Shown piece by piece: positions 4,901 to 63,930 of a DNA stretch of 64,000 nt. The DNA is from Actinomortierella ambigua. Lineage: Eukaryota > Mortierellomycota > Mortierellomycetes > Mortierellales > Mortierellaceae. A program made the translations under genes and the position numbers. The DNA lies in the NCBI GenBank assembly GCA_016098155.1, contig JAAAJB010000085.1, positions 17,266-81,265 on the forward strand, read 5' to 3'. Each line of letters starts with the position of its first letter. Position 1 is the stretch's first letter. The notes under the pieces are model-generated. The model searched no databases and was not told where the DNA came from. It worked only from the letters and a program-made list of their open reading frames with translations.

Positions 4901-7779
4901 TTTCTCCTTCCCTCCCTTTCTCCTTCCTTCTTTTTGTTCCATCCTTGGCTTCCTTCAACGGGTCCAACGGATAAAAGTCCCAGCCTGTCAAACCACAAAA
5001 AAAAAGTGCTTTGAACACAAAACATAAACGTGGTCGCTCTTCCCCTCTGCGCCCTCCTCATCCGCTCCCTCTCCCTCTCTCACCCCCTCCCATCCATACC
5101 ATCCACCCTTCCAGCTTCTACGTTTTCCATCCACCTCGCTCTCGACTCCCCCTTGTTGGACTGGCTAGCTGCATAATCCCCGTCCTCTCTTTTCTTTCCT
5201 TCTTTCGTTTTCATTTTCCACTCTCTGTACCTCCTCTCCTACCCACTCCACTCCACCCCACCTCCACCTTTCATTCCTTTGTACGAAAAAAGGAGTAGCA
5301 TTCCTTGTTCACCCTTCAGCAACGCACTTTCCCGATTCAGCTTGTCCCAGACTGCATTCCTGACATATATCATCTCCTGTCCTCCTGTCCCTCGTCTTAA
5401 CCTCCATCCTTTTCTCATGCCCATGCGCTACCAGGTTTGGCCCACTGAGGTCGAAGAAGTCTTCTTTCGAGGTACGTGAACACCGTGCAGCATTCCTTGG
5501 CATCCTGCATTGAACCCTTTTGCCTACTGTGCGCTCATTGTTGAAATAAACGCGACAAGGTCACACCCCCTCGCACACACAGCGCTCACTCGTCATACTT
5601 CTGCTCGTCGTCTGATGCAATAGCTCTCGAGCAAGTTCCCAAGTTGGGTCGCCGCAAGATCCTAGTAGGAGGCAAGCCATGTGGTCGCAATGAGCTGATT
5701 GCTGAGTACATCTACCGCGAAACTGGTCGTGCCCGCACCCGCAAGCAGGTGTCTTCTCATATTCAGGTCCTCAAGAACACCCGCAAGAATGATCCTGCTT
5801 GTAAGTAGACCACCGACTCGGCCTCGGACGAAGGAGGAGAGCTAGTATCACACAACAACCACCCCCTGGAGCACCATCGCCTGCTCTTGTCTCATCTCAT
5901 TTGTTGAAACTCGGTGGAAACTAACAGTGCGCCCTCTCTTTTTTCCCGTCTACCAACCAACACCCCTGACACAAAAAAAACCATGCACTCCCCCCGAATG
6001 CCTGTCCCGTACCCTGTCGCATACGGCAAAAAAAAACCTCCCTCCCCCCTCCCCATGTGTCACTCAATGCAAACAAAATCAGTTCTCAAGCTGCTCATGG
6101 ATGTCGACAGTGACCAAATGGTTGATACACAGCCGCAACAGCAACAACAACAGCAGCCACAACAGCAAAGGATGTCCGAGTCCATCAGCCCAGCCACTTC
6201 ACCCATCACACCAAACTCACAGGCAGGGGATATGTACACCTTTTCTGGCGCAACTAATGCCCGGGGACACCCAAGCAATCATTATCTCGCGACAGCGACA
6301 ACACCGGGTGCTTCACTCTTCTTGTCAGAGTCTTCGGAGGAAATGAGTAATAACCGCCAGCATGGTCAGTCGTCCATGATGACCGACAATCGTACCTTTG
6401 TACGGCATCCACAGCAAGGATCGATGGAGGAAAGCGGGTTTCAACCATTGTACCAACACGGCCACCCTCATGTTCATCAACCGCCGCAACATCACCATCA
6501 CCAACAGCAGCACCAACCACAACGACAACAACGACCGCAACAGCAACAACCGCAGCATCATCAACAACCACAACAACAACATCATCACCATCACCACTTT
6601 CAACATGCGATGGGTCACTCGAACGGCTCGCAAATGCATGTGGGCATGAGCACGCCCACAGACTCGGCCATCTCACTAACGTCGGACATGAGCTGGACAA
6701 CAAGTTCGCACCCAATGGTTGCATCGACGGGAGTGACGACTCCAATGTCGACCATCAGTCCACATAGCATGTCTGATAACGACGATCAGCATGAAAACCA
6801 TCACCATCACCATCACCATTCAAGCTTTTCAGCCCTTGCCAAGGCAACGCTGCAGGAGAGTGCAATTGGACTCCATGATGCAACTTCATCGACCCCAGTG
6901 ACAGTGGCTCCTAGTACGCTGTCTCAGCCTTCGCAACCAGACTCGACAATAGCGAACGGCACAGTGGCGTCACGAGTGTTTTGGCCCCAGACGTTTTTGC
7001 TGTACATGGATTGTACCACCTCGGCCCAGACCTCGCCTTCCCCAGCACCCCAGGCACCGACGACCCCAGGAGGGACAGCGGCGCCATCACCGCCACCTTA
7101 CCATGCGCTGGCTAAAGCCGGGGACATGGACCGCGCGCAACTGATGACAGAGTCGATGCACAAACTAGCGATGGACAAATTCCCTTGCCTGTTCAACCTG
7201 TATCAGCAATCGATGTGTCCGTTCCTGCACATGACTGTGAAGATGAATCTGGATCTGACGCTCGACGGCATGTTTAGCAACAACAACCTGTTTGAGTCGT
7301 CTGAGCGTCGGGCGATCGAGTGTGCGACGACCATCTATTCGTTCGGGGCCAAGGTCTTGAAGGCTCGCGAGACCAAACAGGCGGCCTTGGTCGGCAACAA
7401 GTTTCTGTACCAGTTTGAGTTTGTCAACCAGTTTTTCAATGCTTTTCTGAAGGGCGTCAAGTCCCTCAGCAACTGGCAGGAGGTTGCCCTGGCCATGTCC
7501 AACCTGTCTGTCGTCCAGGTCTTTACCGATGTCGAGGACCTGCAGTCGATACCGCAACCGCCGACCACACCGCATCATCAACATCATCCTCACCACCACC
7601 ACCACCAGCATCACTCGACCATGCAGCCTCCGTTCTCGCCGACGGGACTGAGGCGCGAGGGTGATGGTGGTCGGTCGCCTCTGTTGGTGATGGCATATGA
7701 TTTCGAGCTTGGGGCCGGAGATGTCGTGGCCCGGTACATCTCGGATGGTTCAGAGATCCTCGACTCTCTTGTTTGTTAA
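469..7779 (+). CDS. TEA/ATTS-domain transcription factor (AbaA/Tec1/TEAD family)
   Basis: Proposed exons: 469-2706, 5435-5471, 5624-5800, 6083-7779 (1382 aa). Exon 1 (residues 1-746) is low complexity, with Ser/Thr, His and long Gln tracts near residues 470-505. The TEA DNA-binding domain starts exactly at exon 2 with VWPTEVEE and covers about residues 747-818, including the [19 protein letters not shown] block and the recognition helix [14 protein letters not shown]. The last exon resumes with FLKLL, has further Gln/His tracts, then a conserved C-terminal region (about 1112-1382, starting SRVFWPQTF) resembling the fungal AbaA/TEAD coactivator-binding domain. Exon 1 ends in phase 0 and joins the TEA start cleanly, which is why I treat both as one gene despite the 2.7 kb intron. 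TEA factors bind CATTCY-type sites and control development and morphogenesis. Alternative: exon 1 is a separate gene. Family assignment is firm; the join is probable. Confidence 0.85.
2754..2820. repeat. CA-rich microsatellite
   Basis: Imperfect (CA)n just inside the 5' end of the TEA-gene intron 1. Confidence 0.8.
4464..4496. repeat. (CATCAC)n microsatellite
   Basis: About five perfect hexamer units within intron 1 of the TEA gene. It lacks spacer structure, so it is not CRISPR-like. Confidence 0.8.
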
Positions 7780-10082: not shown

Positions 10083-10608
10083 GTTGGCATGGCCTTACAA
10101 AGGACTTGCCCGCCCTCACTGCTCGAGCCTTGCGACTGAGGTAGTCTGTCTTGGCCCCTTCGATAATCCTCCAGTCATATGCCAGCGAGTCCGCCACCGC
10201 CTTCTGTCAGAGCTATAGTCTTGTTTCTATCGTAGTCGAGCATTCCCATAGATGGCCTTGCGTTAGACAGTAGATGAGGTTACATTTCTTTGACTTATTT
10301 TACTTTTTTTTATTGTCCAGAATCTTGTGGCTATGGGTGACGAAAGGCCTTCGGATCGCCGTTTGAGTTGTCCTTGGTGGGTCTGGGTATTGTGGTGATG
10401 GTTTGTATGAACGGAGAGAGAGAGCTGAGCATGTGCGAGTGGGCAGCATCGAGGAAGGTGCATGCTTGAAAGTTGGAAAAGGTGGAGCAGTTGAGGTGAG
10501 TGTAATAGGGAGAGGGGAGTGCCATGAAACGATATGGTTTTCATATGCAAAGTCATGTTTTTGAGCATGTACAGCAAGATGGGTGAATTCTGAAAAGGGT
10601 ATATACAT

Positions 10609-11673
10609 CTAAACTAAGAGCATGCTGTCACCGAACAAGTCGAACTCATATTCGCCCATCTCCAGAATCTCAGCATAGCTGCGCATAACAATCTCCTTGC
10701 CTGCGAATGCCGCTGTAAGCACAATGTGGCTGGACCGGGGACGGTGGAGGTTTGTGAGAAGAGCATCCACGACCTTGAACTCAAACCCAGGGTAAATGTA
10801 AAGGTCAGTCCACCCCGATTTAGCCTGAATAGGGGTTTTGGGTGCCTGAAAGACTGCCAGCGATTCGAGAGTGCGCAAGACTGTCGTACCAACCCCGACG
10901 ATGCGGCGCTTCTCGGCCATGGCTCGATTGATTTGTGCGGCGGCCTCGTCTCCAACTTCAAAGTACTCAGCTGTCATTTTGTGGTTCTCGATCTCTTCAG
11001 CGTTGATAAGGCTAACAGCAAAGTCTTCGGTCGTTCCAACATGCAGCGTGATGTATGCAATCTCTACACCTTTGCGGACAATCGAATCCAGCAGCTCGGC
11101 AGAGAAGTGGAGGCCTGCAGAGGGAATATCTAGCGAGCCCGGTGTCTTGGCATAGACTGAGCGGTAGGACTGATTCTTGGTCTGCCATAATGTGGGGTCA
11201 AGGTGTATCGTTTTATCGACGCGCGTGCCATAAGCGTCAAGAGTGGGCACCAGTCGTTCAAAAGGCTCAAACCTGGCCTTCCAGAGCGCATTGGGACGTT
11301 GACTGATCAGGGTACACGAGAGTTGAGGATCGTCCTTGCACGTTAGAGTGATACCAGGCTGTGGGTGAAATTTGCCTTTGAGGTCGAGAATGGTCGTACC
11401 GTCGGGCTCGTGACCGAGAAGGGACACCAGCATGGATGTGTCGCCATGATTAAACTCCAAGGTGTTTGATAGGATGTAGCTGTCATTCAAGACCAGAAGA
11501 TCGCCAGGATGGAGGTAGTCGATGATAGAGGAGAACACCGTGTGAATAATTGCATCTGCTCCGCGATCGAGCACGACCATCCTTCCACTTTCGCGGGTCT
11601 TGCCGCGCAAATCAACAGGATCGCTCGGCATCATCGCCGGGTTCTGACTGAAGTCAAAATCAGCAGTCTTCAT
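10609..11673 (-). CDS. QueA-like SAM-dependent ribosyltransferase-isomerase, copy 1
   Basis: Intronless, 354 aa from the MKTADFDF start. An in-frame ATG 23 codons upstream (11742) also exists, but the corresponding extension is frameshifted in copy 3 and bacterial QueA starts at the TDF-type motif, so I chose 11673. Family landmarks: PSAGLHF (residue ~184), TLHVG (~209), VGTTVLRTLES (~261), YPGFEFKVVDALLTN (~294) and terminal GDSML. Bacterial QueA transfers the ribosyl group of S-adenosylmethionine to preQ1 in tRNA, giving epoxyqueuosine. Fungi do not make preQ1, so the fungal substrate is unknown. The usual Asn-Thr-Arg motif after GDLLVLN is replaced by NDSYIL. Lack of introns in an intron-rich neighbourhood and the bacterial family suggest horizontal transfer. 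Length matches the family (about 340-360 aa). Confidence 0.85.
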   Translation of the reverse strand: MKTADFDFSQNPAMMPSDPVDLRGKTRESGRMVVLDRGADAIIHTVFSSIIDYLHPGDLLVLNDSYILSNTLEFNHGDTSMLVSLLGHEPDGTTILDLKGKFHPQPGITLTCKDDPQLSCTLISQRPNALWKARFEPFERLVPTLDAYGTRVDKTIHLDPTLWQTKNQSYRSVYAKTPGSLDIPSAGLHFSAELLDSIVRKGVEIAYITLHVGTTEDFAVSLINAEEIENHKMTAEYFEVGDEAAAQINRAMAEKRRIVGVGTTVLRTLESLAVFQAPKTPIQAKSGWTDLYIYPGFEFKVVDALLTNLHRPRSSHIVLTAAFAGKEIVMRSYAEILEMGEYEFDLFGDSMLLV

Positions 11674-11902
11674 GGCCTGTTGTGTTTCCGGGTGTATTGG
11701 AGAATAGAATGCGACAATGCAGAAGTTGAGATGAGTTACCATGGTGCATCACGAGGCAATGCAACCTATGTTGTGATGGACCTGTCGACTTACTGTGCGA
11801 GGTTAATGTCTCTGTGAGCAGCTTGTGCGGTGGAAGGAAGAATACCCTGCGGGCGATTTCAAAGCGAATGGGAAGGTGAGATTGCCAAGAACGAAGCGTG
11901 TT

Positions 11903-11912
11903 CCTTTAAATA
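11903..11912 (-). promoter_or_regulatory. TATA-like box upstream of QueA-like copy 1
   Basis: TATTTAAAGG on the - strand, about 230 bp upstream of the chosen start. The same decamer with flanking sequence occurs at the matching place in units B and C. Confidence 0.5.
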
Positions 11913-13054
11913 CATGTGCGGTACCACGCCGCTGTTGGCCATGTTTTCTGCCTGATCCGCTATGTAACCATCTTTTTTCCGTGCTGACTACCCCAACATT
12001 TGCGTCCTCTTCATTCCTGCACAACGCTGAAGAAAACATTTGTTTCCCATGCCCTGATCATCCGTTAGCATTTTGTCTGTGTGAACACATGCAAATGTGG
12101 TACAAACATAGACTAGCCCACCATACGGAACGGACCTCTTCAAACGTCATCTGACGAAGCCACGTCAATGCGGTTTCTTCCTTTCACGCCCTTGTGCGCA
12201 CATTGGCCCAGACCATTTTCGTTCTTGTCCCCATGCCAGGTTTCCTCCTTTACAGGACTCCATATCATTTTCTCACTAGTCCCGATGTCTGTAGCACAAA
12301 CCCTTTTCTCCTGAGCATTGTCCTAAGCTGACAACAACAGCGCGTCTCCAATAGCTGCTTACGCTACTGCCACCCTCCTGCACCATCTGTACTGTAGTGC
12401 CCGACTCTTCTGCGCTACATTTAACCTACGCGCCTGCTGATTGTTTGTATGTATCATTTATTTAATTGATCAGCCTATGCAGCACACCCTATCCCCAGTC
12501 TTTGAGGCAAGCGTTTATACTTTCTGTTCACTTTGCTTGACCCATCTGACGCCTGTATTCTGCTTAGACCCCTTATGCCTTGTTTAGACCCTGATTTTGC
12601 GAACCAGAACGCGCCTCCCTTCTACCCCCTCCCTGTTTTACACCCATGCGGACCTCTCTTCAAGTCACCTAGATAATGGCACTTTACTTATAGTCACCGA
12701 TTACCGTGCGCAGATGACTGGTATTGGTATCCTGGCATGTTCTCACGCTTGCGATGCTTTTTTTCACTTCGGCAGCGTACGTTGAAGTGCTTTGAATGGA
12801 AGCTCCTCAGGGTTCCATGAGTTCTCACGAAATAAGGTTTGAAATTCACACCCCCTTTGAATTCCCAAGCTTAGGGGCTTAGTTTTCTCTTTCGACCCCC
12901 TCCTCTCTCCTTCCAGGGAAGAGTCGTGAGACAAATCTATTGTGAGGCGACGCTGAAAATACCTCACCATGCCTTGTGCCCGTAGCATTCTATTTTTTTA
13001 CGATGCTATCAAAGTGAGTCGTGCCCTTGTCCTCATCTGCCCTGCTATGTTGCC

Positions 13055-13440
13055 ATGCATCTTAGCGGGCGACGGGGTAATGGCGATGTCGACTTTTCAG
13101 TCCACCTACGGGAGAATCACGACTACGCTTTGAACGTGACTGAGGTCAAGAAGGAAGATTTTCGACGGGGAGTTGCACAAAACATTGTGTAGTTGGAGGC
13201 AGCGCTCACAGAGAAGAAACACAGGCGTGAGACGTATGATATTGGCGGAGAAGAGGAGCCACCAGCAAAGCAAAGGACCTTTGGGATTGTCACGGACGCC
13301 GAGAAATGGGCGTTCCTTGACTGCACGATGGATGAGAATGACACTGTGTCGTTTAGGATGAGCTTTCTTGACGGGGATCTCAACTTTCGTGGCAGTTGCC
13401 ACAAAGATTTTTCAAAATGTTTTATGGCTCTGGTCTCAGA
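13055..13440 (+). pseudogene. Fragment of a Crinkler-type PD-(D/E)xK nuclease-like domain
   Basis: Reading from 13055, the frame contains SGRRGNGDVDF, then LNVTEVKKEDF, where D and ExK fit a PD-(D/E)xK core. It then reaches an in-frame TAG at 13190-13192 at a position where the family normally has Gln. The same frame continues with LEAALTEKKHRR and TDAEKWAFLDCTMDEND. This order is familiar from C-terminal domains of fungal CRN-like proteins (recalled, not searched). No N-terminal or NTPase part is present and similarity fades after about 13430. It sits inside a roughly 700 bp insertion absent from the paralogous unit B. I call it a dead fragment. Confidence 0.6.
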
Positions 13441-13711
13441 TGGGGGGCGAGATCCCGAAGCGGGACATCGAATCTCGAAACTGAGAGCAACATACACCGC
13501 TGATATATTGGGAGGCACAAGCGCAGACAACACAAGTTATCAAGACCCTGGATCATACGAACATCCTATTCTTCTGGCGCATCCTCCTATTGTAACACTT
13601 TCCCAAACCTCTCCTTGCAATACAATATCATCACCCCTCACCTCAGATAACAACATAAATATCCAACGCTCACTCCTCTACTTTTCTTTCGCGGCAGATT
13701 TCTTGATCTTG

Positions 13712-14545
13712 TTAGCTCACGAAGGCAGTGAACAGACTCATGGCATGAACACGAGATGAATGAAGTGTGCCAGGGAGCGTAACATAAATGAGGCAAGGCG
13801 GCGTGAAAGACTCGCCAATGGCAATCGCAGTCCATACTCCAACATTCAGACCATCACAGCCATCTCCGTGTGGTTTTGCTCTGCAAAGACGAACAGATGC
13901 ACATATGCTGCTTAAGGATGCGGAGGTATTGAATTGGCGGTTTTCGGAACACAACTGTACTATTATAGAGGTTGTCCACATTCTGCTGCCACCACGGCCT
14001 ATTTTTCCCCTCTTCATGTCTTAAACCATCGCTCCGCCGGAGTGAAGAAAAAGAGTCTACTGCAACCCCTCATATCTATTCTTTGCGAATAAATCTGTAG
14101 AGCAGTGGGCTAGAGCTCAGCTGATCGAGCGACAAGGCCACTCGATCGTCTAAACATTGTGCTACATAAATCGTAAACTCCAGAACAAGAGCCTAAACCA
14201 AAGTCCAACAACCACATTAATCATTTGGACTTTATCTGCTGTTGACAGTAGAGAGATAGCTTACCAGGTGGCTAGACCGCCTTGTGTACAGCAAAGGCAG
14301 ATTGTGCCTTCATGATACTGAAGGTGGTAGGGAGGAATCTGGGCCTCGTCTTTCTTCCGAAGTTTATTGTGTGAGATTTTCAACGTTGTGGAAGCTTGAT
14401 AGTCTTTCCGACTGCGCTCGTGTGATGTGGGGATCAGTTGTGGAGGTGAAAACGACTTGTTCTTTTGCCTCGACCCTGACACTTTTTGTTCGGGCAGGGG
14501 TTACAGTAAAGCCCAACCACGGATGGGTGAAAATCTTTCGCTGTC
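13712..14545. repeat. Duplicated module M1 (pair of 18094-18785)
   Basis: It begins TTAGCTCACGAAGGCAG and contains GGAGGTGAAAACG..TTGT and CCTCGACCCTGACACTTT, matching M2 in the same order. Internal segments differ by indels. It contains no supportable gene and was probably part of the ancestral duplicated unit. Confidence 0.65.
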
Positions 14546-15311
14546 CTTGTTCTGCCGGGATATCACTCCCTCCAAAATGAGTGCCACCCCTGCGGACATT
14601 CAAAAAAAACGCGTAAAAAATTTCGTGGCTTGTGTTTGCAAATTTTACAACACATAAATAGAGCGCCGTTGAACATTTTTTTTTTTCTTTCTTCCTCAAT
14701 CTTCACCCCCTTCCCCCACTCCTCCATTTCCACCATTTGGGTAAGTTGAGCATTCCATTTTTCCATTCATTCCTTTCACTCCTCTTCCTGTTGTCGCATT
14801 ATGATGATACACTAAAAGACATTTGCACGTCAGTCTGAGAACTGCCATGCTGTTTAATTAGCTATACCCAAATTTCTGATGCCCATCCTATCCACCCCCT
14901 ACCACACTCCCTCGCTTGGTGGATCGTCTTTCAAAGCCGATAAAAGGACATTGTTTATCTAACCTTTTTATCTTGCTCTGATCGTATGCTTTGCTAGTAG
15001 ATTGCAGCTTGATTCATTCTTCGTCAAGCGCAAGGAGCATCGTGAGTAATGGACTATTGTGGAAATCGTATCCTAAAATGTGTTGTGTCAATAAAAGACT
15101 ACGATTAAAAAGTGCTCATATGTAGAATGATGGATTGGAAATGTTAAATGATGGATCGGATCCTCTAAAGAAAGATGGATGTTAGTCACCACGCCGGATT
15201 CATAAACCAGAGGAAAGAAGTCTATCTTTCTCTCAGGCAGGAATCTTCGGCAAAAGCACCCAACCTGGGAAGACCTTGATTCGCTGACCATTGCGCCCTC
15301 CCATGGCCGAT
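14546..15311. other. Spacer between module M1 and unit B
   Basis: Unique AT-rich sequence; no gene, RNA or element recognised. Confidence 0.4.
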
Positions 15312-15460
15312 TGTTAGATAGTAGACGAGGTTACATCTCTTCATTTTTTTTCTTTTATTTTTTCGTCCAGAATCCCGTGGCTATGGGTGACGAAAGGCGC
15401 TTAGATCTCAGTCTGAGTTGTCTTTGGAGGGTCTGGGGTTTGTGGCGATGGTTGGTATGA

Positions 15461-15462
<2 letters not shown>

Positions 15463-15506
<44 letters not shown>
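15463..15506. repeat. (GA)n microsatellite
   Basis: Over 40 bp of GA repeats in the 3' flank of QueA-like copy 2. Unit A has only a short GAGAGAGAG at the homologous place, so it expanded after duplication. Confidence 0.85.
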
Positions 15507-15508
<2 letters not shown>

Positions 15509-15635
15509 GCGCATGCGTGAGTGAGAAGCATCAAGGAAGGTGCATGTTTGAGGATGGAATGGGGAGGGGGTGCGATAAAGCGATACGCAAAAGTCAAGTT
15601 TTCGACCAAGATCAACAAGATGGTGTATTCTGGAT

Positions 15636-16700
15636 CTAAACGATGAGCATGCTGTCACCAAACATGTCGAACTCGTATCCGCCCATCTCCAAAATCTCAG
15701 CATAGCTGCGCATAACAATCTCCTTATTCGCGAATGCCGCTGTAAGCACAATATGGCTGGACCGAGGACGGTGGAGATTGGTGAGAAGAGCATCCACGAC
15801 CTTGAACTCAAACCCAGGGTATATGTAAATGTCAGTCCACCCCGATTTGGCCTTGACGGGGGTTTTAGGTGCCTGGAGGACTGCGAGCGATTCGAGAGTG
15901 CGCAAGACTGTCGTACCAACCCCGACGATGCGACGCTTCTCGGCCATGGCTCGATTGATTTGTGCGGCGGCCTCGTCTCCAACCTCAAAGTACTCAGCTG
16001 TCATCTTGTGGTTCTCGATCTCCTCAGCGCTGATAAGACTTACATCCAGACTTTCGGCCGTTCCAACATGCAGCGTGATGTATGCAATCTCTACACCTTT
16101 GCGGGCAATCGAATCCAGCAGCTCGGCGGAGAAGTGGAGACCTGCAGACGGGATATCCAGCGAACCCGGTGACTTGGCGTAGACTGAGCGATAAGAGTCA
16201 TTTTTGGTGTGCCACAATCTAAGGTCGATGTTCATCGTTTCATCCGTGCGCGTGCCAAAGGCGTCAAGAGCAGGCATTAGTCGCTCGACAGGCTCAAACC
16301 TGGCCTTCCAGAGCGTGTCGGGACGTTGGCTGATCAAGGTACACGAGAGCTGAGGATCGTCCTTGCACATTATAGTGAGACCGGGCTGAGGGTCCAATTC
16401 GCCCAAAACTTCGATAGCGGTCGTACCCTCGGGCTCGTGACCGAGAAGGGACACCAGCACCGGTATGTCACCGTGTTTAAAAAGGATGCTGTTTGACATG
16501 ACATAGCTGTCGTTCAAGACCAGAAGATCGCCAGGATGGAAATAGTCGATAATAGACGAGAACACCGAGTGAGTAACTGAATCTGCTCCCCGATCGAGCA
16601 CGACCATCCTTCCGCTTTCGCGGGTCTTGCCGCGCAAATCAACGGGATCACTCGGTATGATCGTCGAGCTCTCACTGAAGTCAAAGTCAGCTGTCTTCAT
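15636..16700 (-). CDS. QueA-like SAM-dependent ribosyltransferase-isomerase, copy 2
   Basis: Intronless, 354 aa from MKTADFDF; the longer in-frame option starts at 16769. It has the same landmarks as copies 1 and 3 (PSAGLHF, TLHVG, VGTTVLRTLES, YPGFEFKVVDALLTN, GDSML) and no disabling change. Compared with copy 3, I count by eye about 33 differences in the first 170 residues but only about 10 in the last 184, so the C-terminal half is much more conserved. The motif after GDLLVLN reads NDSYVM. Being intact and under its own copy of the upstream block, it is likely expressed. Function beyond family membership is unknown. Confidence 0.85.
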   Translation of the reverse strand: MKTADFDFSESSTIIPSDPVDLRGKTRESGRMVVLDRGADSVTHSVFSSIIDYFHPGDLLVLNDSYVMSNSILFKHGDIPVLVSLLGHEPEGTTAIEVLGELDPQPGLTIMCKDDPQLSCTLISQRPDTLWKARFEPVERLMPALDAFGTRTDETMNIDLRLWHTKNDSYRSVYAKSPGSLDIPSAGLHFSAELLDSIARKGVEIAYITLHVGTAESLDVSLISAEEIENHKMTAEYFEVGDEAAAQINRAMAEKRRIVGVGTTVLRTLESLAVLQAPKTPVKAKSGWTDIYIYPGFEFKVVDALLTNLHRPRSSHIVLTAAFANKEIVMRSYAEILEMGGYEFDMFGDSMLIV

Positions 16701-16929
16701 GACTTGTCGTGTTCCCGGAAGTATTCGAGAATAGAATGCGACAATGTAGAAGTTGAGATGAGTTACCATGGCGCATCACGAGGCAATACAAATTGTGTTG
16801 TGGTGGACCTGTCGTCTTACTGTGCGAGGTTAATGTCTCTCTGAGCGGTTTGTGTGATGGAAGGAGGGATACCCTGCAAGCGATTTCAAAGCGAAAGGGA
16901 AGATGAAATTGCCAAGAGCGAAGCGTATT

Positions 16930-16939
16930 CCTTTAAATA
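16930..16939 (-). promoter_or_regulatory. TATA-like box upstream of QueA-like copy 2
   Basis: TATTTAAAGG on the - strand, embedded in a block identical or nearly so to units A and C. Confidence 0.5.
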
Positions 16940-17833
16940 CATGTGCGGTACCACGCCGCTGTTGGCCATGTTTTCTGCCTGAGCCGCGATGTAACCATCT
17001 TTTCCCGTGCTGATTACCCCAATATTTGCGTCCTCTTCATTCCTGCACAATGCTGACGAAAACATTTGTTTCCCAGGTCCTGGTCATCCGTTAGCATTTT
17101 TTCAGCGTGAACGCATACCAATGTGGTACAAACATAGAGTGGTCTATCATACGGAATGTAGGGTGCTTTTCAAACGCTATCTGACGAAGCCACGTCAATG
17201 CGGTTTCTTCCTCTCACGCCATTGTACCGCGTTCGTTTTGCTCTCACGCCAAGGCTGCAGTTTTACAGGACCTCATATTATTTTCGCACCAGTCCCGATA
17301 CCTGCAGCACAGACCCTGTTCCCCTGAACTTTGTCGTAAGGTGACTACATTTTGTGTTCAACAATGCACCTTCAATAACTGCTTTCGCCACTGTCGCCTT
17401 CCTGAACCCTCTTTACTGAGTGCCCGACTCTTGTGCGCTACAATTACCCTACGCGCTAATGGTATTGTGCATCATTTAACTTTTTGGCAGATGTGCAGCA
17501 CACCCGGCCGCCAGTCTTTGAGGCACGCGTTTATCCTTTCCGCTCACTTTGTTTTGAACCCCATCTCATGCTTTGCTCTCAGCCTAGACCCCTTCTGTTC
17601 CTTACCAGAAGGCGCTGAATTCTCCCTTGTATTTCACCCCTTCCCGTCTCGCTCTTCACCGGGGTAACTCTCAGCCATAGTCTTGCATCGAGTAAGATAA
17701 AGCATGCCTCAATTTACGTGCTGCCCATATGAACCTCTCTTTAATTCACCTGCATGATGGCTCTTCAATTTTGGTTATCGGCTACCGCCGTACAGTTATC
17801 GCTACCCTGGCATGTTCTAACGCCTGCGATGCC

Positions 17834-17857
17834 TTTTTTTTTTTTTTTTTTTTTTTT
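17834..17857. repeat. Poly-T tract
   Basis: 24 consecutive T within unit B; unit C has 22 T (21035-21056) and unit A 7 at the homologous site. Confidence 0.8.
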
Positions 17858-18093
17858 CCTTCGGTAGCGTACAAAGAAGCGTCGGCTCCTCGAGGCTCCA
17901 TGGGTTCTGAACACTCAAGCTAGAGTTACACATCTTGCAATACTCGCTGTGCAGCTTTGATTTTGACCCTGTTTTCTTGTTTCCCTTTCCCACGCCATAT
18001 TTTCTGATCACGCATGAGTACGGGGGAGACAAATCTTTTGTGAGGCGACAAAATCTATGCTTCAATGCCACATAGTTGTTTTTTTTTATCCTT

Positions 18094-18785
18094 TTAGCTC
18101 ACGAAGGCAGCGGGAAGACTCATGGTATGACACGAGCTGGGTGGCTTGACTGCCTTGTATTGTTCCTGGTCTCACAGCAGGAGTGGATAGGTGAGGGAGG
18201 AGTGGGGTGTGGGTGCAGGGATGAGGGGAGGGCTAGTCGTGTAAAGCGGAATTACTCTGCGAGAGGAAGATAGATGCTAAAGCACAAAGAACGCTCGCAG
18301 GGAAAATCAAAACACACACGGATGTATTGCTATCTCTGTGAGGGGTGTGCGTGTGTCTGCCTACCTGCTCGGGGTGATCCTTGGAAGTTTGGTTTTCCCT
18401 ACGAGTATTCTTTGTGCTTTAGTATCAATCTTCCCCCTCCCAGAGAGATTCCGCCTTACACCCCGCACCTTCTACACCCAGTCACCCCTGTTGTGTTCAG
18501 TGTGAAGCAAAGATAGATTGTGTATACATGTTACTAAAAGTAGTAGGCAGGAATTTGGACCCCGTCGCATGAGCGTCTTTTTGTGAGGGAAAGGAAGGGT
18601 TGTTTGTGTGACATGTTCATGATTTGGAAGCTTGATAGTCTTTCTGGTTGTGCTCGCATGGTGTGGGAGTCAGTTGTGGAGGTGAAAACGGCTTGTTTTT
18701 TTTTTACCTCGACCCTGACACTTTCTGGTTGGCCAGGAACTGCAGCAAAGCCTCGCTACCGATGGGTGAAAAATTTTCTCCTTGA
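18094..18785. repeat. Duplicated module M2 (pair of 13712-14545)
   Basis: Matches M1 at both ends (TTTTAGCTCACGAAGGCAG; CCTCGACCCTGACACTTTC). It directly separates units B and C and holds no supportable gene. Confidence 0.65.
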
Positions 18786-18897
18786 GCTGGGACAAAATCT
18801 CAACAATTACAATACCTTCAATAAAGACGAGCGTGTGCAACTCCTAGCCGTTGAGTGGACACTCCAAAAAACAGTGTATTCTGAGAGGAGTATACAT

Positions 18898-19962
18898 CTA
18901 AACTATAAGCATGCTGTCACCAAACATGTCGAACTCGTATTCTCCAATCTCCACAATCTCAGCATAGCTGCGCATAACAATCTCCTTGCCTGCGAATGCT
19001 GCTGTAAGCACAATGTGGCTGGACCGGGGACGGTGGAGATTGGTGAGAAGAGCATCCACGACCTTGAACTCAAACCCAGGGTATATGTAAAGGTCAGTCC
19101 ACCCCGACTTGGCCTTGACGGGGGTTTTAGGTGCCTGGAGGACTGCCAGCGATTCGAGAGTGCGCAAGACTGTCGTACCAACCCCGACGATGCGACGCTT
19201 CTCGGCCATGGCTCGATTGATTTGGGCGGCAGCCTCGTCGCCAACCTCAAAGTACTCAGCTGTCATTTTGTGGTTCTCGATCTCTTCGGCGCTGATATGA
19301 CGAACAGCCAGGCTTTCGGTTGTTCCAACATGCAGCGTGATGTATGCAATCTCTACACCTTTGCGGGCAATCGAATCCAGCAGCTCAGCAGAGAAGTGGA
19401 GACCTGCCGATGGAATATCTAGCGAGCCCGGTGTCTTGGCGTAGACTGAGCGATAAGACTCATTCTTGGTGTGCCACAAAGTAAGGTCGATGTGCATCGT
19501 CTCCTCAATGCGCGTGCCATAAGCGTCATAAGCGGGCATCAGTCGTTCGAAAGGCTCAAACCTGGCCTTCCAGAGCTCATCGGGGCGTTGGCTGATCAGG
19601 GTACACGAGAGCTGAGGATCGTCCTTGCACGTTAGAGTGATACCGGGTTGTGGGTTCAATTCGCCAATGATTTTGGTAAGCGTCGTACCCTCGGGCTCGT
19701 GACCGAGAAGGAACACCAGCGCGGATGTGTCGCCATGTGTAAAACGGAGGGCGTTTGGCAGGACATAGCTGTCGTTCAAGACCAGAAGATCGCCAGGATG
19801 GAAGTAGTCGAGAATAGAGGAGAACACCGTGTGGGTAACTGAGTCTGCTCCGCGATCGAGCACGACCATCCTTCCGCTTTCGCGGGTCTTGCCACGCAAA
19901 TCAATGGGATCGTTTGGTATGACCGTCGAGCTCTCACTGAAGTCAAAGTCAGCTGTCTTCAT
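18898..19962 (-). CDS. QueA-like SAM-dependent ribosyltransferase-isomerase, copy 3
   Basis: Intronless, 354 aa. Landmarks by residue: NDSYVL 63-68, PSAGLHF 184-190, TLHVG 209-213, VGTTVLRTLES 261-271, YPGFEFKVVDALLTN 294-308, GDSML 348-352. Upstream of MKTADFDF the extension seen in copies 1 and 2 is out of frame because of a 2-nt deletion next to the upstream ATG. The true start of the family is therefore most likely MKTADFDF, unless copy 3 lost a targeting extension. The ORF is intact. Substrate is unknown; bacterial relatives act on preQ1-tRNA or are uncharacterised paralogues. Confidence 0.85.
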   Translation of the reverse strand: MKTADFDFSESSTVIPNDPIDLRGKTRESGRMVVLDRGADSVTHTVFSSILDYFHPGDLLVLNDSYVLPNALRFTHGDTSALVFLLGHEPEGTTLTKIIGELNPQPGITLTCKDDPQLSCTLISQRPDELWKARFEPFERLMPAYDAYGTRIEETMHIDLTLWHTKNESYRSVYAKTPGSLDIPSAGLHFSAELLDSIARKGVEIAYITLHVGTTESLAVRHISAEEIENHKMTAEYFEVGDEAAAQINRAMAEKRRIVGVGTTVLRTLESLAVLQAPKTPVKAKSGWTDLYIYPGFEFKVVDALLTNLHRPRSSHIVLTAAFAGKEIVMRSYAEIVEIGEYEFDMFGDSMLIV

Positions 19963-20189
19963 GGCCTGTCGTGTTTCGGGATGTATCCGGGAATAGAATG
20001 CGATGATGCAGAAGTTGGTGAGTTACCATGGCACATCACGAGGCAATGCAACTTGTGTTGTGGTAGACCTGTCGACTTACTGTGCGAGGTTAATGTCTCT
20101 GTGAGCAGTTTGCGTGAAGGAAGGAGGGATACCCTGCAGGCGATTTTAAAGCGAAAGTGAGGATGAATTTATCAACAGCGAAGCGTGTT

Positions 20190-20199
20190 CCTTTAAATA
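20190..20199 (-). promoter_or_regulatory. TATA-like box upstream of QueA-like copy 3
   Basis: TATTTAAAGG on the - strand, preserved although the surrounding unit C sequence has drifted more than in A and B. Confidence 0.5.
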
Positions 20200-21300
20200 C
20201 ATGTGCAGCACCACATTGCCATGACCACGCTTTCTGCCTGAGCCGCTATAACAATTATCTTTGCCCGTACTGATTACCCAACATTTGCTCCATTTCGTTC
20301 CTACACAATGCTAAAGAAAACACTTGTTTCCCAAGCCTTGATCATCCATTAGCATTTTTCCGTGAGAACCCATGGAGATATCCTACAAACATATAGTCGC
20401 TTACGGAATGAATGGTGCTATTCAAACGCCATCTGACGAAGCCACGTCCGTCACGCCCTTATGCGTACGTGGACCCTGACCGTGTTCGTTTTCATGCCAA
20501 GATTGCGGTTATAGTCTAGAGGATTCCATGTCATTTTCGCACCTTTTCCCATGCCTGTAGCACAGACACCTACCCCTGAACCTTGTATTGTTTGTATCAT
20601 TGCATCTTCGGCAATTGCTTGCACCCCTGTTAGTGTCCATGCTATGGTGCCCACCTTGTTGTTGTGTATCATTAAACTTGTTGACAGATGTGCACCACAC
20701 CCGGCCCTCCGGCCTTTGCGGTACGCATTTGAACCCTAACTCACGCTTACCTTCAAGCTAGACCCCCTATCTTTATCTTTTTAGACTTCAATTCTTTGGA
20801 CCAGAAGGCGCTGACTACCCCTTGTGCCGCCCCCCTCCCCCTCTTGTTCTTCGCCGGGGCAACTCTCAGCCATAGTGTTGTATCGAGCAAGGTAAAGCGT
20901 GTCTCAATTGACGGCGCTGCCCATGCGGACCTTTCTCCATGTTACTTGCACGATGGCACCTCACTTTTGGTTATCGGTTACCGCGCACAGGTGATTGGTG
21001 TCGCCACACTAGCACGTTCTCACGCCTGTGATGCTTTTTTTTTTTTTTTTTTTTTTGGGCTTTCGTAGCTAGAACGGAAGCTTGATGAGTTCTCACGGGA
21101 AATTCACACCTCATCTGAACACCCAAACTAAGGTTGAACGTTTCTGAGCAGCATTAGTTTCCAACCCACTCTCTCTTTTCACCCCTCCCACGCCTACAAT
21201 TTCTGATCACGCATGTGGAGAGAGAGTCGTGAGACAATTTTTTTGTGAGGCGATAAACTCTATGCTTCAATGCCAAACAATTGGTTTTTTTTTATGTCCA

Positions 21301-21987
21301 CGTGGAGCAAAGGCTACCACAATGTTACTCTCCTACGTTTTCTATCCTTCTATCTCCATTCAACCCTCACTTACTATTTTTCCAAACAACGTGACGTGAC
21401 GAGCCAAGGATCAGTAAGCGGGTGATGGAATGAATGTATTGTAGCGTGTGAATTGTGCTATTACGAAGAGGGATGAGAAGCAGAAAGGCAGAGGAAGAGA
21501 GTCCAATGGGGCGAGTATTGGGAGTGAAAAGAGTTAGAGAGTGGAATGGAGAGTGGAGTGAGAGAGCCAATGACAACGTCTCTACAATAGTTAGAGCGGC
21601 AAAGATCTGTGCAAGTCCCCCGCATTTCTCAGCATCCATATCCCCAGGGTGCTTGACCCCACAAATGACAGTTTTGGTCAAGAATCGTCGCTAAAACGCG
21701 GGGAACCCATTCGAGGGCTCTCTCTGTCGCCACATGATGGCCATGAAACACAGAACTCAGCATACCCCACTTCTACACTCCATCCACTTGTGTGTGAGAA
21801 AAGGGACGATGGTTCCCTACTGGTCAGTCAACAACTGCCAGATGAAATTGGCGACACAAAAAATATGGTACAGCATTGGCATCTGGGAAATTTATTCTGC
21901 CAAAAGGGTATGGACAGAGAGTTGGTGTTCATCATATCTGTTTGAAAAAAAAAAAGAAAGAAAGAAGAAATTGCCTCGTTGACGAAA
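21301..21987. other. Spacer between the QueA-like array and the dehydrogenase gene
   Basis: Unique sequence containing the 3' flank of the dehydrogenase gene. Short open frames look random and no element end or repeat was found. Confidence 0.4.
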
Positions 21988-23079
21988 CTATCGAGACTCG
22001 GAGATGTATGAGGGAGGACGACTCTTATCCGAGCTCTTGTCCGAGCCCCTGTCCGAGCTCCTATCCGAGAGCGACATGCGCGCTAGAGACTCACGGGTCG
22101 CGGCCTGGGTGGTCTCGGGCAAATCAGACTTGGCGCGAACGGCGTCGATAAGCGAGCTCCAGTCCTGGTGACCCTTATTCTGCTCTTTGAGGGTTGTGAA
22201 ATGCTCATGAACCAGGTCCGCCGTCGGGAGGACCGTGTGACTGTCCTGGGCCAGCTGGCGCATATGGTTGACGTCCTTGAGACCGAGATCGATCGAGAAG
22301 CCATCCTCCTTACCGAACTGACCCTCGACCATGTTCTTGGCATACCCGGTCCAGACTGGGGACGGGAACGTGACCTCGATAAACTTGAGCAGTGCGTCTG
22401 TGCTGACATCCGACTTTTCCGCCAGCGTGAGTCCCTCGGCCAGGAGCTCCATCGAGCCTACGATGAAGAAATTGCCAATCAGCTTGAATGAGGACGATGC
22501 GCCGACGTTGGGGGTCTTGAGGTGGATGATCTGGCGCGACATGGTGTTGAAGTACAGGCAGAGCTTTTCGATCGCCTTCTGGTCACCTGCTGTGATCCAG
22601 ATCAAGCGCGCCGCCTTGGCAGCAGGTGGGCGACCAAAGACAGGGCACTGCAAGAACTTGTGCTGAGGGTAGACAGCGAGTCGTTCCTTGATGCTTGTCG
22701 ACAACTTTGGGGAGATGGTCGAGGTGTCGCAAAAGATGATCTCGTGGTCGACCTGGCCGGACAGCTCGATCAGGTGTTCATAGACCTCCTCGACGGCCTG
22801 GTCGTTCGACAGCGATGTGAAGATGATGTTTGACTGGGCCACCACGTCCTCGATCGAGTCTGCCACACGCACTCCATAGCTGTTGTGCAGCTTGTCGGCC
22901 TTGGCACGGGTGCGGTTCCACACTGTCATGTTGAGCGACCGCGACGTCAGGTATTTTTGAAGGTTGGCTGCCATGTAGTATCCCATCTCGCCCAAGCCGA
23001 TCCAGCCGATGCGGTCCTGGTGCTTGAGGTGTGGCAACAGCTTGTCGCGCAGCGAAAACTTTGACTTGCTGGAGGACAT
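21988..23079 (-). CDS. Beta-hydroxyacid dehydrogenase family protein (6PGDH/HIBADH-like)
   Basis: Single exon, 363 aa. An N-terminal Rossmann motif GWIGLGEMGYYMAANL (about residues 26-41) binds NAD(P). It is followed by VWNRTRAKADKL and a FCDTSTISP segment typical of the beta-hydroxyacid dehydrogenase active-site region. KLIGNF near residue 203 carries the expected catalytic Lys and the neighbouring Asn. The C-terminus is a Ser/Asp/Arg/Lys tail with repeats of SSDRGSDKSSDKS, not part of the fold. No mitochondrial presequence is obvious, so it may be cytosolic and closer to GLYR1-type reductases than to 3-hydroxyisobutyrate dehydrogenase. The exact substrate cannot be told. Confidence 0.85.
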   Translation of the reverse strand: MSSSKSKFSLRDKLLPHLKHQDRIGWIGLGEMGYYMAANLQKYLTSRSLNMTVWNRTRAKADKLHNSYGVRVADSIEDVVAQSNIIFTSLSNDQAVEEVYEHLIELSGQVDHEIIFCDTSTISPKLSTSIKERLAVYPQHKFLQCPVFGRPPAAKAARLIWITAGDQKAIEKLCLYFNTMSRQIIHLKTPNVGASSSFKLIGNFFIVGSMELLAEGLTLAEKSDVSTDALLKFIEVTFPSPVWTGYAKNMVEGQFGKEDGFSIDLGLKDVNHMRQLAQDSHTVLPTADLVHEHFTTLKEQNKGHQDWSSLIDAVRAKSDLPETTQAATRESLARMSLSDRSSDRGSDKSSDKSRPPSYISESR

Positions 23080-62827: not shown

Positions 62828-63930
62828 CTATGCTCTTTGCTTTTTAACACGGTCCTCATCATCACTGATATCGTCATCGGCTGGTCGTTTCTCCACGCTC
62901 TTGAGTCTGTCAATGGACTGGACGTGTTCTTTGGGAAAGATTTTGCCAAAGTTGGTCTCGCTGACACGTATCACGACCTGTTGCAGGCCGCTCGCTTCCT
63001 TCTCGGGAACGTCGACGACTTCCGGCAACCTGGGAGCACACATCATAGGGTAGGCGACGACCATGCTGATGTAGATGCTGTCTGGGCACAAGTTCTGGAA
63101 ATCCTTGGCATGATCCCGGATGCAAGGCGCCGAAACCGTGGCCAGTGCGGCATCCCAAACGCACTTGTAGAGTTTAGATGTACTCTTGTGCAGCTTCATC
63201 TGTACAAAGATAGGCACTACCTTGCGGCCATCGATGCGGACAAAGAACACCATGTCTGGTCCCGATGGGCAGCGGTGGGGGAAGAAGAACGGAGCGACTG
63301 GCAGGTTGTTGCGAGTTGAATGGTGGTTGACATGTGCGTCCATAAATTCTTCCATCGACATCCTCTCATGGGTCGTGCCCTGCAGGAGGCAAGGATCTTT
63401 CCAGCCAACAATCTCCACCTCATCAGCAAGATCAGGACACATGGACAAGATTCGTGGCTGATGGGACCAGTCGGAGAGCTGTCGCGTCTTGAACGTCTCG
63501 CTGAAAACGGTCATCATATACCGCTCAAAGAGGTTTCCCTTAGCGACTGCGTCCGACCGATCCATCAGGCTCTTGAGGTCCACCTGGAGGCCCGGGTCTA
63601 TCGCGTTGAAGTAGTTTTCCACTGCCTTGAACACGAAGGGCTCGTCGACAACGGTGACAGCGTCGTTCTTGATGATCTTCATCCGGCCAAAGGCTTCCTG
63701 ACATGTGGTCGGCCACATAGCGGCGCGTCGAGAAGTTTCCGCAAGGAAGCAGAAGCTTCTCCTTGCTATCCATCTGCACTTCAACTGCCTCGCCTGTCGG
63801 TTTGCGGAATACATAGAAAAAAGCGGAAGGCATAGTGTAACAAAGTGTGAGGGAGAATGGAAAAAAGGTGTGAAGAGACCTGCCGGCCGGCTCATCCGGC
63901 AATTTCAACATCTTTTTGTGGCTTAACAAG
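62828..63930 (-). pseudogene. Crinkler-family C-terminal nuclease-like domain, frameshifted
   Basis: From about 63670 down to the stop at 62828, one frame encodes a domain with NLFERYMMTVFSETFKTR, RMSMEEFMDAHVNHHSTRNN, SGPDMVFFVRIDGRKVVPIF then VQMKLH, and NFGKIFPKEHVQSIDRLK. It ends in an acidic stretch and the basic KKQRA. PDxVFF...VQxK fits a PD-(D/E)xK-like active site (QxK variant). Upstream, the matching frame is shifted by one base: RKPTGEAVEVQMDSKEKLLL and GNFSTRRYVADHM lie in another frame up to about 63690. The family is that of CRN-like proteins with an N-terminal NTPase module, which would lie beyond the window end. It is either a decayed copy or carries an assembly error. Confidence 0.55.

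Follow-up and report, generated by a model that had tools for sequence, protein, structure and literature searches.

QueA is known as a bacterial enzyme acting on preQ1 in tRNA, and the question raised by a 64,000-nucleotide stretch of DNA from the fungus Actinomortierella ambigua (contig JAAAJB010000085.1, the whole stretch being referred to here as the window) is what a gene of the QueA family does there in three tandem copies. By phylogenetic and profile comparisons the copies are shown to belong to a distinct, small QueA-like subfamily, for which the label QueA2 is coined here and which a long branch sets apart from canonical QueA. Horizontal acquisition followed by tandem triplication is well supported, and action on an amine outside tRNA is the most likely reading of what the enzymes do, at about an even chance.

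QueA2 and canonical QueA

The three open reading frames (ORFs) lie on the reverse strand at 10609..11673 (copy 1), 15636..16700 (copy 2) and 18898..19962 (copy 3), and they match PF02547 (Queuosine_synth; cut-off 25) with 280.4, 280 and 289.7 bits, respectively, from position 2 to position 322 of the 322-position profile. Each consists of 354 codons from a common MKTADF start with zero internal stops, so that the original prediction of three intact, head-to-tail QueA-family ORFs is confirmed, and pairwise amino acid identities among the copies are 292, 299 and 311 of 354. MKTADF is the likely start because the 377-residue ORFs of copies 1 and 2 begin at an upstream ATG that does not share the reading frame in copy 3; a longer N-terminus for the first two copies was rejected on account of this broken upstream frame. 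The whole 33.8-Mb assembly holds three PF02547 matches, all of them on the 81-kb contig of the array, and no fourth copy or clear fragment was found in the 64-kb window (remaining matches E ≥ 3.6).

The likeness to QueA (PF02547, TIGR00113) consists of a full-length family match, homology to known structures and a common set of invariant residues. Copy 3 matches the sequences of three QueA structures (1YY3, 1VKY and 1WDI; best E 1.2e-59) and is 33 to 38% identical to eight canonical sequences, and 34 alignment columns, including the motifs P-x-A-G-L-H and G-x-T-x-x-R-x-L-E, are invariant over 37 QueA2 and those eight canonical rows. The difference lies in equivalog scores, in positions fixed otherwise, in acidity, and in pathway partners that were not found in the host (see below). 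The equivalog cut-offs are 267.45 bits for TIGR00113, 324 for NF001140 and 588 for NF002398. The window copies score 219 to 236 bits with the first model and 239 to 250 bits with the second; all ten QueA2 proteins scored (three from the window and seven others) fall below both cut-offs, whereas all three canonical controls lie far above them. The third cut-off was reached by neither QueA2 nor the canonical controls.

In a comparison of QueA2 with 18 canonical sequences, the two groups are fixed for different states, at a level of at least 90%, in 27 columns (20 substitutions and 7 gaps), and there are also canonical-invariant columns that vary in QueA2. Of the 27 columns, 24, 24 and 25 show the QueA2 state in copies 1, 2 and 3, respectively, the exceptions being 153 (copy 3), 215 (copy 2), 222 (copies 1 and 2), 346 (copy 1) and 233 (all three). 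Among the differing sites, Ala is replaced by Asn at 70 and Arg by Glu at 343, and the canonical-invariant Arg at 71 is mostly Thr; a canonical stretch near 157-161 is lost or replaced, and changes together with an insertion are seen near 215-222. The mean net charge is -12.5 for QueA2 (121 rows) versus -2.1 for canonical QueA (18 rows), and that of the inserted domain -6.9 versus +1.2, an acidity that fits a weaker binding of RNA.

In a quick IQ-TREE analysis of 73 rows, which took 8 of the 18 canonical sequences and in which the tool flags the long canonical branches, the 65 QueA2 rows form a clade apart from the canonical ones (SH-aLRT 100). With all 18 canonical sequences, FastTree gives a separating branch of 1.42, its node labelled 0.75 after re-rooting. 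An assignment of the three copies to canonical QueA, in the sense of the preQ1-tRNA enzyme, is thus not supported, since they fall in a separate subfamily that scores below the TIGR00113 and NF001140 cut-offs.

Distribution and origin of the subfamily

When 5.8 billion proteins were searched, 7,933 of the 8,000 candidates scored matched at 1e-10. The best 120 were listed, and from these together with the window 121 rows were built: 40 rows are fungal, three of them window copies, 16 are bacterial and 65 are unlabelled, the last mostly metagenomic and including one protein (P0053) that is named Kitasatospora. With a basal member (P0117) as query, 213 proteins were found at 1e-60 among 8,000 scored. 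QueA2 occurs in scattered fungi, in actinobacteria and in Burkholderiales. The named fungi among the matches are Mortierellaceae, Aspergillus, Metarhizium, Alternaria, lichen fungi, Dactylellina and Tirmania; the named bacteria, whose proteins belong to the same subfamily as the window copies, are Nocardiopsis, Nocardia, Kitasatospora, Spirillospora, Actinosynnema, a metagenome-assembled genome of Pseudonocardiaceae, Burkholderia, Paraburkholderia, Trinickia and Massilia. Identity to copy 3 is 58 to 66% among the 16 named bacterial rows.

IQ-TREE unites 39 of 41 fungal rows in a main group (SH-aLRT 92), next to which stand 12 actinobacterial rows; the Tirmania and Entomortierella rows lie outside this main group. 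A single fungal clade was not rejected by the approximately unbiased test (p 0.316 with all 41 rows, 0.547 without Tirmania). When the tree is rooted on canonical QueA, the bacterial and unlabelled rows are basal and the fungal rows are nested among bacterial ones, and a transfer from bacteria to fungi therefore fits; the phylogeny thus upholds the horizontal acquisition that had been proposed for this locus. The row from Tirmania nivea (P0005) stands beside bacterial rows in an unsettled placement, which may reflect another transfer event, contamination or an error of the tree.

Within the wider group the distribution is patchy. A. wolfii and many other Mortierellaceae are represented by proteins in the database, but A. 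wolfii, Podila, Linnemannia and M. alpina have none among the 120 QueA2 matches listed and are likely to lack the gene. Genome contigs were also searched with copy 3, using search patterns other than the conserved ones of the subfamily, and the best 80 of 159 confirmed loci are 30 to 38% identical to it; these 80 are taken as canonical QueA (three were checked). Plasmids yielded 23 records with identities of at most 36.8%, phages 21 records, all below 60% (the 10 listed ones at 33 to 37%), and viral contigs no match. At E 1e-85 or better no match was obtained in 369 genomes of one class, 63 of one order or 398 of one phylum, a set that partly overlaps the class set; these sets contained no positive control, so that the negatives carry little weight.

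The gene is less unexpected in a fungus than was first thought. QueA homologues were stated in 2005 to occur in bacteria only, and a report of 2007 (PMC2375020) on Aspergillus niger found An08g09210, annotated as "S-adenosylmethionine tRNA ribosyltransferase", to be without homologues in the other fungi compared there, which was called "somewhat surprising". Relatives are now seen in many fungi; an A. niger protein in the present set (P0091, not equated here with An08g09210) lies within the main fungal QueA2 clade of the IQ-TREE analysis and is, like the window copies, a fungal member of the family. A eukaryotic gene of the bacterial QueA type has also been described in the green alga Chloropicon and in some red algae (PMC12301720), compared here by its description. 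These algae have QueA together with BL-TGT and QueG, predicted to be mitochondrial and proposed to use preQ1, whereas in A. ambigua neither partner was found and no N-terminal extension is in frame across the three copies. No description of the QueA2 subfamily or of the Mortierella array was seen in a search limited to open-access papers, judged by its listings and by selected passages.

The array and the divergence of its copies

The copies lie in duplicated blocks of 2.4 to 2.8 kb, all on the reverse strand and matching the limits first proposed for the repeat. The block of copy 1 with its flanking DNA (10262..12764) aligns with 15313-17597 at 82% identity (2,345 columns), with 12643-12764 in addition. 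That of copy 2 spans 15313..18089, and its portion 15634-18089 aligns at 79% identity (2,500 columns) with 18896-21295, which is also the extent given by the block comparison for copy 3 (18896..21295). A TATA-like word of 17 nucleotides is exact in all three copies (11903..11919, 16930..16946 and 20190..20206), 228 to 230 bp upstream of each start, where shuffling gives an expectation of 0.01 against the three found. Copies 3 and 2 are spaced by 3,262 bp and copies 2 and 1 by 5,027 bp; the latter gap includes about 1.5 kb (12765-14283) almost without similarity to the other blocks, apart from a 60-bp match. In this extra DNA, 13193-13759 on the forward strand forms a 188-codon ORF with a TTG start and no Pfam match, possibly a gene fragment. 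DNA well downstream of copy 2 (14284-14539) resembles DNA downstream of copy 3 (18500-18778; 72% identical), and the DNA immediately downstream of copy 2 resembles that of copy 1 instead. With these mixed likenesses, the array probably did not arise from one simple block duplication.

The ratio of non-synonymous to synonymous differences per site (pN/pS) is 0.30 to 0.34 for the three window pairs (Fisher p 7e-12, 5e-10 and 4e-10), and the corresponding ratio of substitution rates (dN/dS) is 0.27 to 0.30 by NG86, with copy 1 at 0.28 versus copy 2 and 0.30 versus copy 3, and 0.32 to 0.43 by YN00. These pairwise ratios point to purifying selection, which agrees with the earlier suggestion that the full-length copies are preserved by selection. 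Synonymous divergence has no consistent trend along the gene; non-synonymous change peaks in codons 60-177, and in codons 60-118 of copies 2 and 3 pN equals pS. An explanation of the conserved core by gene conversion was rejected, since synonymous divergence does not drop consistently there. In an AlphaFold2 model of copy 3 (mean pLDDT 89.3, pTM 0.90), the strands at about 65-136 span much of the fast stretch. The copies thus share their catalytic core and diverge most in a small inserted beta-barrel, a pattern that a tuning to different acceptors would fit.

The chance is a little short of even that the divergence of the barrel reflects weak constraint and that the copies are redundant, serving dosage rather than specialisation; this would be compatible with the enzymes acting on a non-tRNA amine. 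The ratio of divergence in the insert to that in the core has a median of 1.95 (5-95%: 1.1-2.8) over 437 pairs of the family, the domain being less conserved family-wide. For the window pairs the ratios are 3.2, 2.6 and 4.2, values that are reached by 0.9%, 10% and 0.2% of the family pairs (which are not independent of one another) and that speak against mere redundancy, as does the parity of pN and pS in codons 60-118 of copies 2 and 3. Between strains, copy 1 and its putative counterpart in a second A. ambigua assembly (DFQ26_005953) have a ratio of only 1.2, which favours weak constraint, and copy 2 and DFQ26_005949 one of 4.4, based on only 14 differences.

The two DFQ26 proteins also bear on the age of the array. 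DFQ26_005949 is identical to copy 2 at 340 of 354 positions and DFQ26_005953 to copy 1 at 306 of 354. In the IQ-TREE analysis the five Actinomortierella rows form a clade (SH-aLRT 100) in which copy 2 joins DFQ26_005949 (99) and then copy 3 (99), the placement of copy 1 and DFQ26_005953 within the clade not being resolved; FastTree pairs these two at 0.79, and DFQ26_005953 is clearly nearest to copy 1 only over its first half. Duplication probably took place before the two A. ambigua-like strains separated, and turnover of array copies is possible. In the comparison between strains (window 10609-23079 against the A. ambigua DFQ26 proteins P0002, P0004 and P0128), the neighbouring dehydrogenase is 99.7% identical as against 96% and 86% for the QueA2 proteins, which argues for faster evolution or turnover of the array than of its neighbour.

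Possible acceptors and the genomic setting

In the proposed course of events, a fungal ancestor would have acquired QueA2 from bacteria, with tandem duplication following in the A. ambigua lineage. The chemistry of QueA would most likely be kept: SAM (S-adenosylmethionine) would lose adenine and methionine, and its ribose-derived carbons would pass, with isomerisation, to an amine. There is an even balance for and against the proposal that this bacterial-derived subfamily keeps QueA chemistry and that its acceptor is a small molecule of specialised metabolism, or some other amine outside tRNA, rather than preQ1 in tRNA. A fuller version casts QueA2 as a ribosyl transferase that uses SAM to decorate small molecules, has been exchanged between bacteria and fungi of the soil and has array copies with different acceptors; it is a tentative proposal and on balance doubtful.

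Part of the case comes from the queuosine genes of the host. Its assembly has a QTRT1 gene with an exon whose best structural matches are to QTRT1 (E 4e-135). In human numbering (by arithmetic from the match to a 403-residue QTRT1 chain) the Val of LDDVV falls at 161, and in GLSGGE the first of the paired Gly residues falls at 232. In human TGT, Val161 and Gly232, which replace the bacterial Cys and Val, are reported to go with the use of queuine, and the change from Cys to Val to weaken preQ1 binding. Judged by these residues, the host TGT is of the queuine type. There is a second TGT-family locus, presumably QTRT2. An exon-by-exon search of the assembly, which a split gene could escape, gave no match to QueF (PF14489), YhhQ (PF02592), QueG (DUF1730, PF08331) or QueH (PF02677), and BL-TGT was not found in the assembly either. 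A role of QueA2 on preQ1-tRNA is unlikely because of the queuine-type TGT and the lack of QueF, QueG, QueH and YhhQ matches. Two host loci match PF10343 (Qng1; G000:C334:156627-158078 and G000:C838:53372-54135); one Qng1 locus is usual in eukaryotes.

Other organisms contribute two further points. Streptomycetes are described as lacking TGT and queuosine, and if this holds for Kitasatospora, a member of the Streptomycetaceae, QueA2 in that genus cannot act on preQ1-tRNA. In A. niger a survey of 2013 predicted a gene cluster at backbone gene An08g09220, extending over An08g09150-An08g09400 according to SMURF and An08g09140-An08g09360 according to antiSMASH, and the locus number of An08g09210 puts it inside both predicted secondary-metabolite clusters.

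Several observations weigh against a non-tRNA acceptor. Burkholderiales usually have a normal queuosine pathway, and not all actinobacteria lack TGT: Corynebacterium glutamicum, used as a control, has it. A Pfam scan of 14 ORFs of the window showed no secondary-metabolism backbone gene. Acidity and replaced residues are no proof of lost tRNA binding, and the canonical set with which they were compared is small and non-random. The clusters in A. niger are software predictions with no manually set boundary, from two programs that are both said in the source to over-predict. Derivatives of preQ1 have been found to be incorporated into tRNA in Schizosaccharomyces pombe, where they enter by way of the eukaryotic TGT, and in human cells (PMC9561289).

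Of the readings that stay closer to queuosine, an unlikely one is that the substrates of QueA2 are free 7-deazaguanine bases or nucleosides, preQ1 itself being one example, and that the enzyme serves to make or scavenge either a micronutrient resembling queuine or a deazapurine metabolite. This would be a small step away from QueA chemistry in a host that has queuine-salvage genes, and preQ1 may occur in soil, but with no match to QueF, QueG or QueH there is no visible preQ1 synthesis or epoxide reductase of these families in the host, and no deazapurine gene is present among the 14 scanned ORFs. Decidedly improbable is a true QueA working on fungal tRNA, in which the eukaryotic TGT would insert environmental preQ1 and QueA2 would convert it to epoxyqueuosine, widening salvage to preQ1. 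Membership of the same Pfam family, homology to QueA structures, the TGT-family genes of the host, the incorporation of preQ1 derivatives just cited and the mitochondrial use of preQ1 proposed for algae with QueA and QueG would suit such a role; the missing QueG, QueH and YhhQ, the queuine-type pocket of the host QTRT1, and the departure of QueA2 from canonical QueA in fixed positions, equivalog scores and charge oppose it.

The queuosine-biosynthesis annotation of these fungal and actinobacterial genes is probably wrong. To our knowledge, no enzyme other than QueA is known to build on the ribose of SAM; were QueA2 to act on small molecules, SAM would be a ribosyl donor outside tRNA modification. 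A subfamily that probably has no need for tRNA would offer a simpler system for SAM-ribose chemistry and could yield undescribed metabolites. A passage quoted on this point names no relative in natural products.

The array is flanked on one side by a gene for a beta-hydroxyacid dehydrogenase-like protein (21988..23079, reverse strand; PF03446 and PF14833) and on the other by a gene with a YAP-binding domain of the TEA family (5914..7779, forward strand; PF17725 YBD, E 8e-06). The dehydrogenase is identical at 362 of 363 positions to A. ambigua DFQ26_005947 of the second assembly, and its closest named relatives among the 120 matches listed are Mortierellaceae genera. DFQ26_005947, DFQ26_005949 and DFQ26_005953 are each listed on a contig of size 95,236, and from that size and the locus tags we infer a single contig, with at least two QueA2 copies near the same dehydrogenase in the second assembly; DFQ26_005948 was not seen among the matches listed. 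With fungal genes on both flanks and the same dehydrogenase neighbour in the second assembly, the array lies in fungal DNA, as originally supposed, and its position between a YBD-domain gene and a Mortierellaceae-type dehydrogenase does not bear out the further claim of an accessory region.

Bacterial contamination was rejected on these grounds and because all PF02547 matches of the assembly lie on one contig. Together with neutral amplification without a selected function it is very improbable: the patchy distribution and the far greater divergence of QueA2 than of its neighbour between the two strains would suit such an origin, but the pN/pS values well below 1 in all three pairs, the conserved upstream word and the fungal setting do not. 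Further along the window, which near its end also contains a 355-residue ORF without a Pfam match (62828-63895, reverse strand), there are ABC-transporter, septin and L16 genes.

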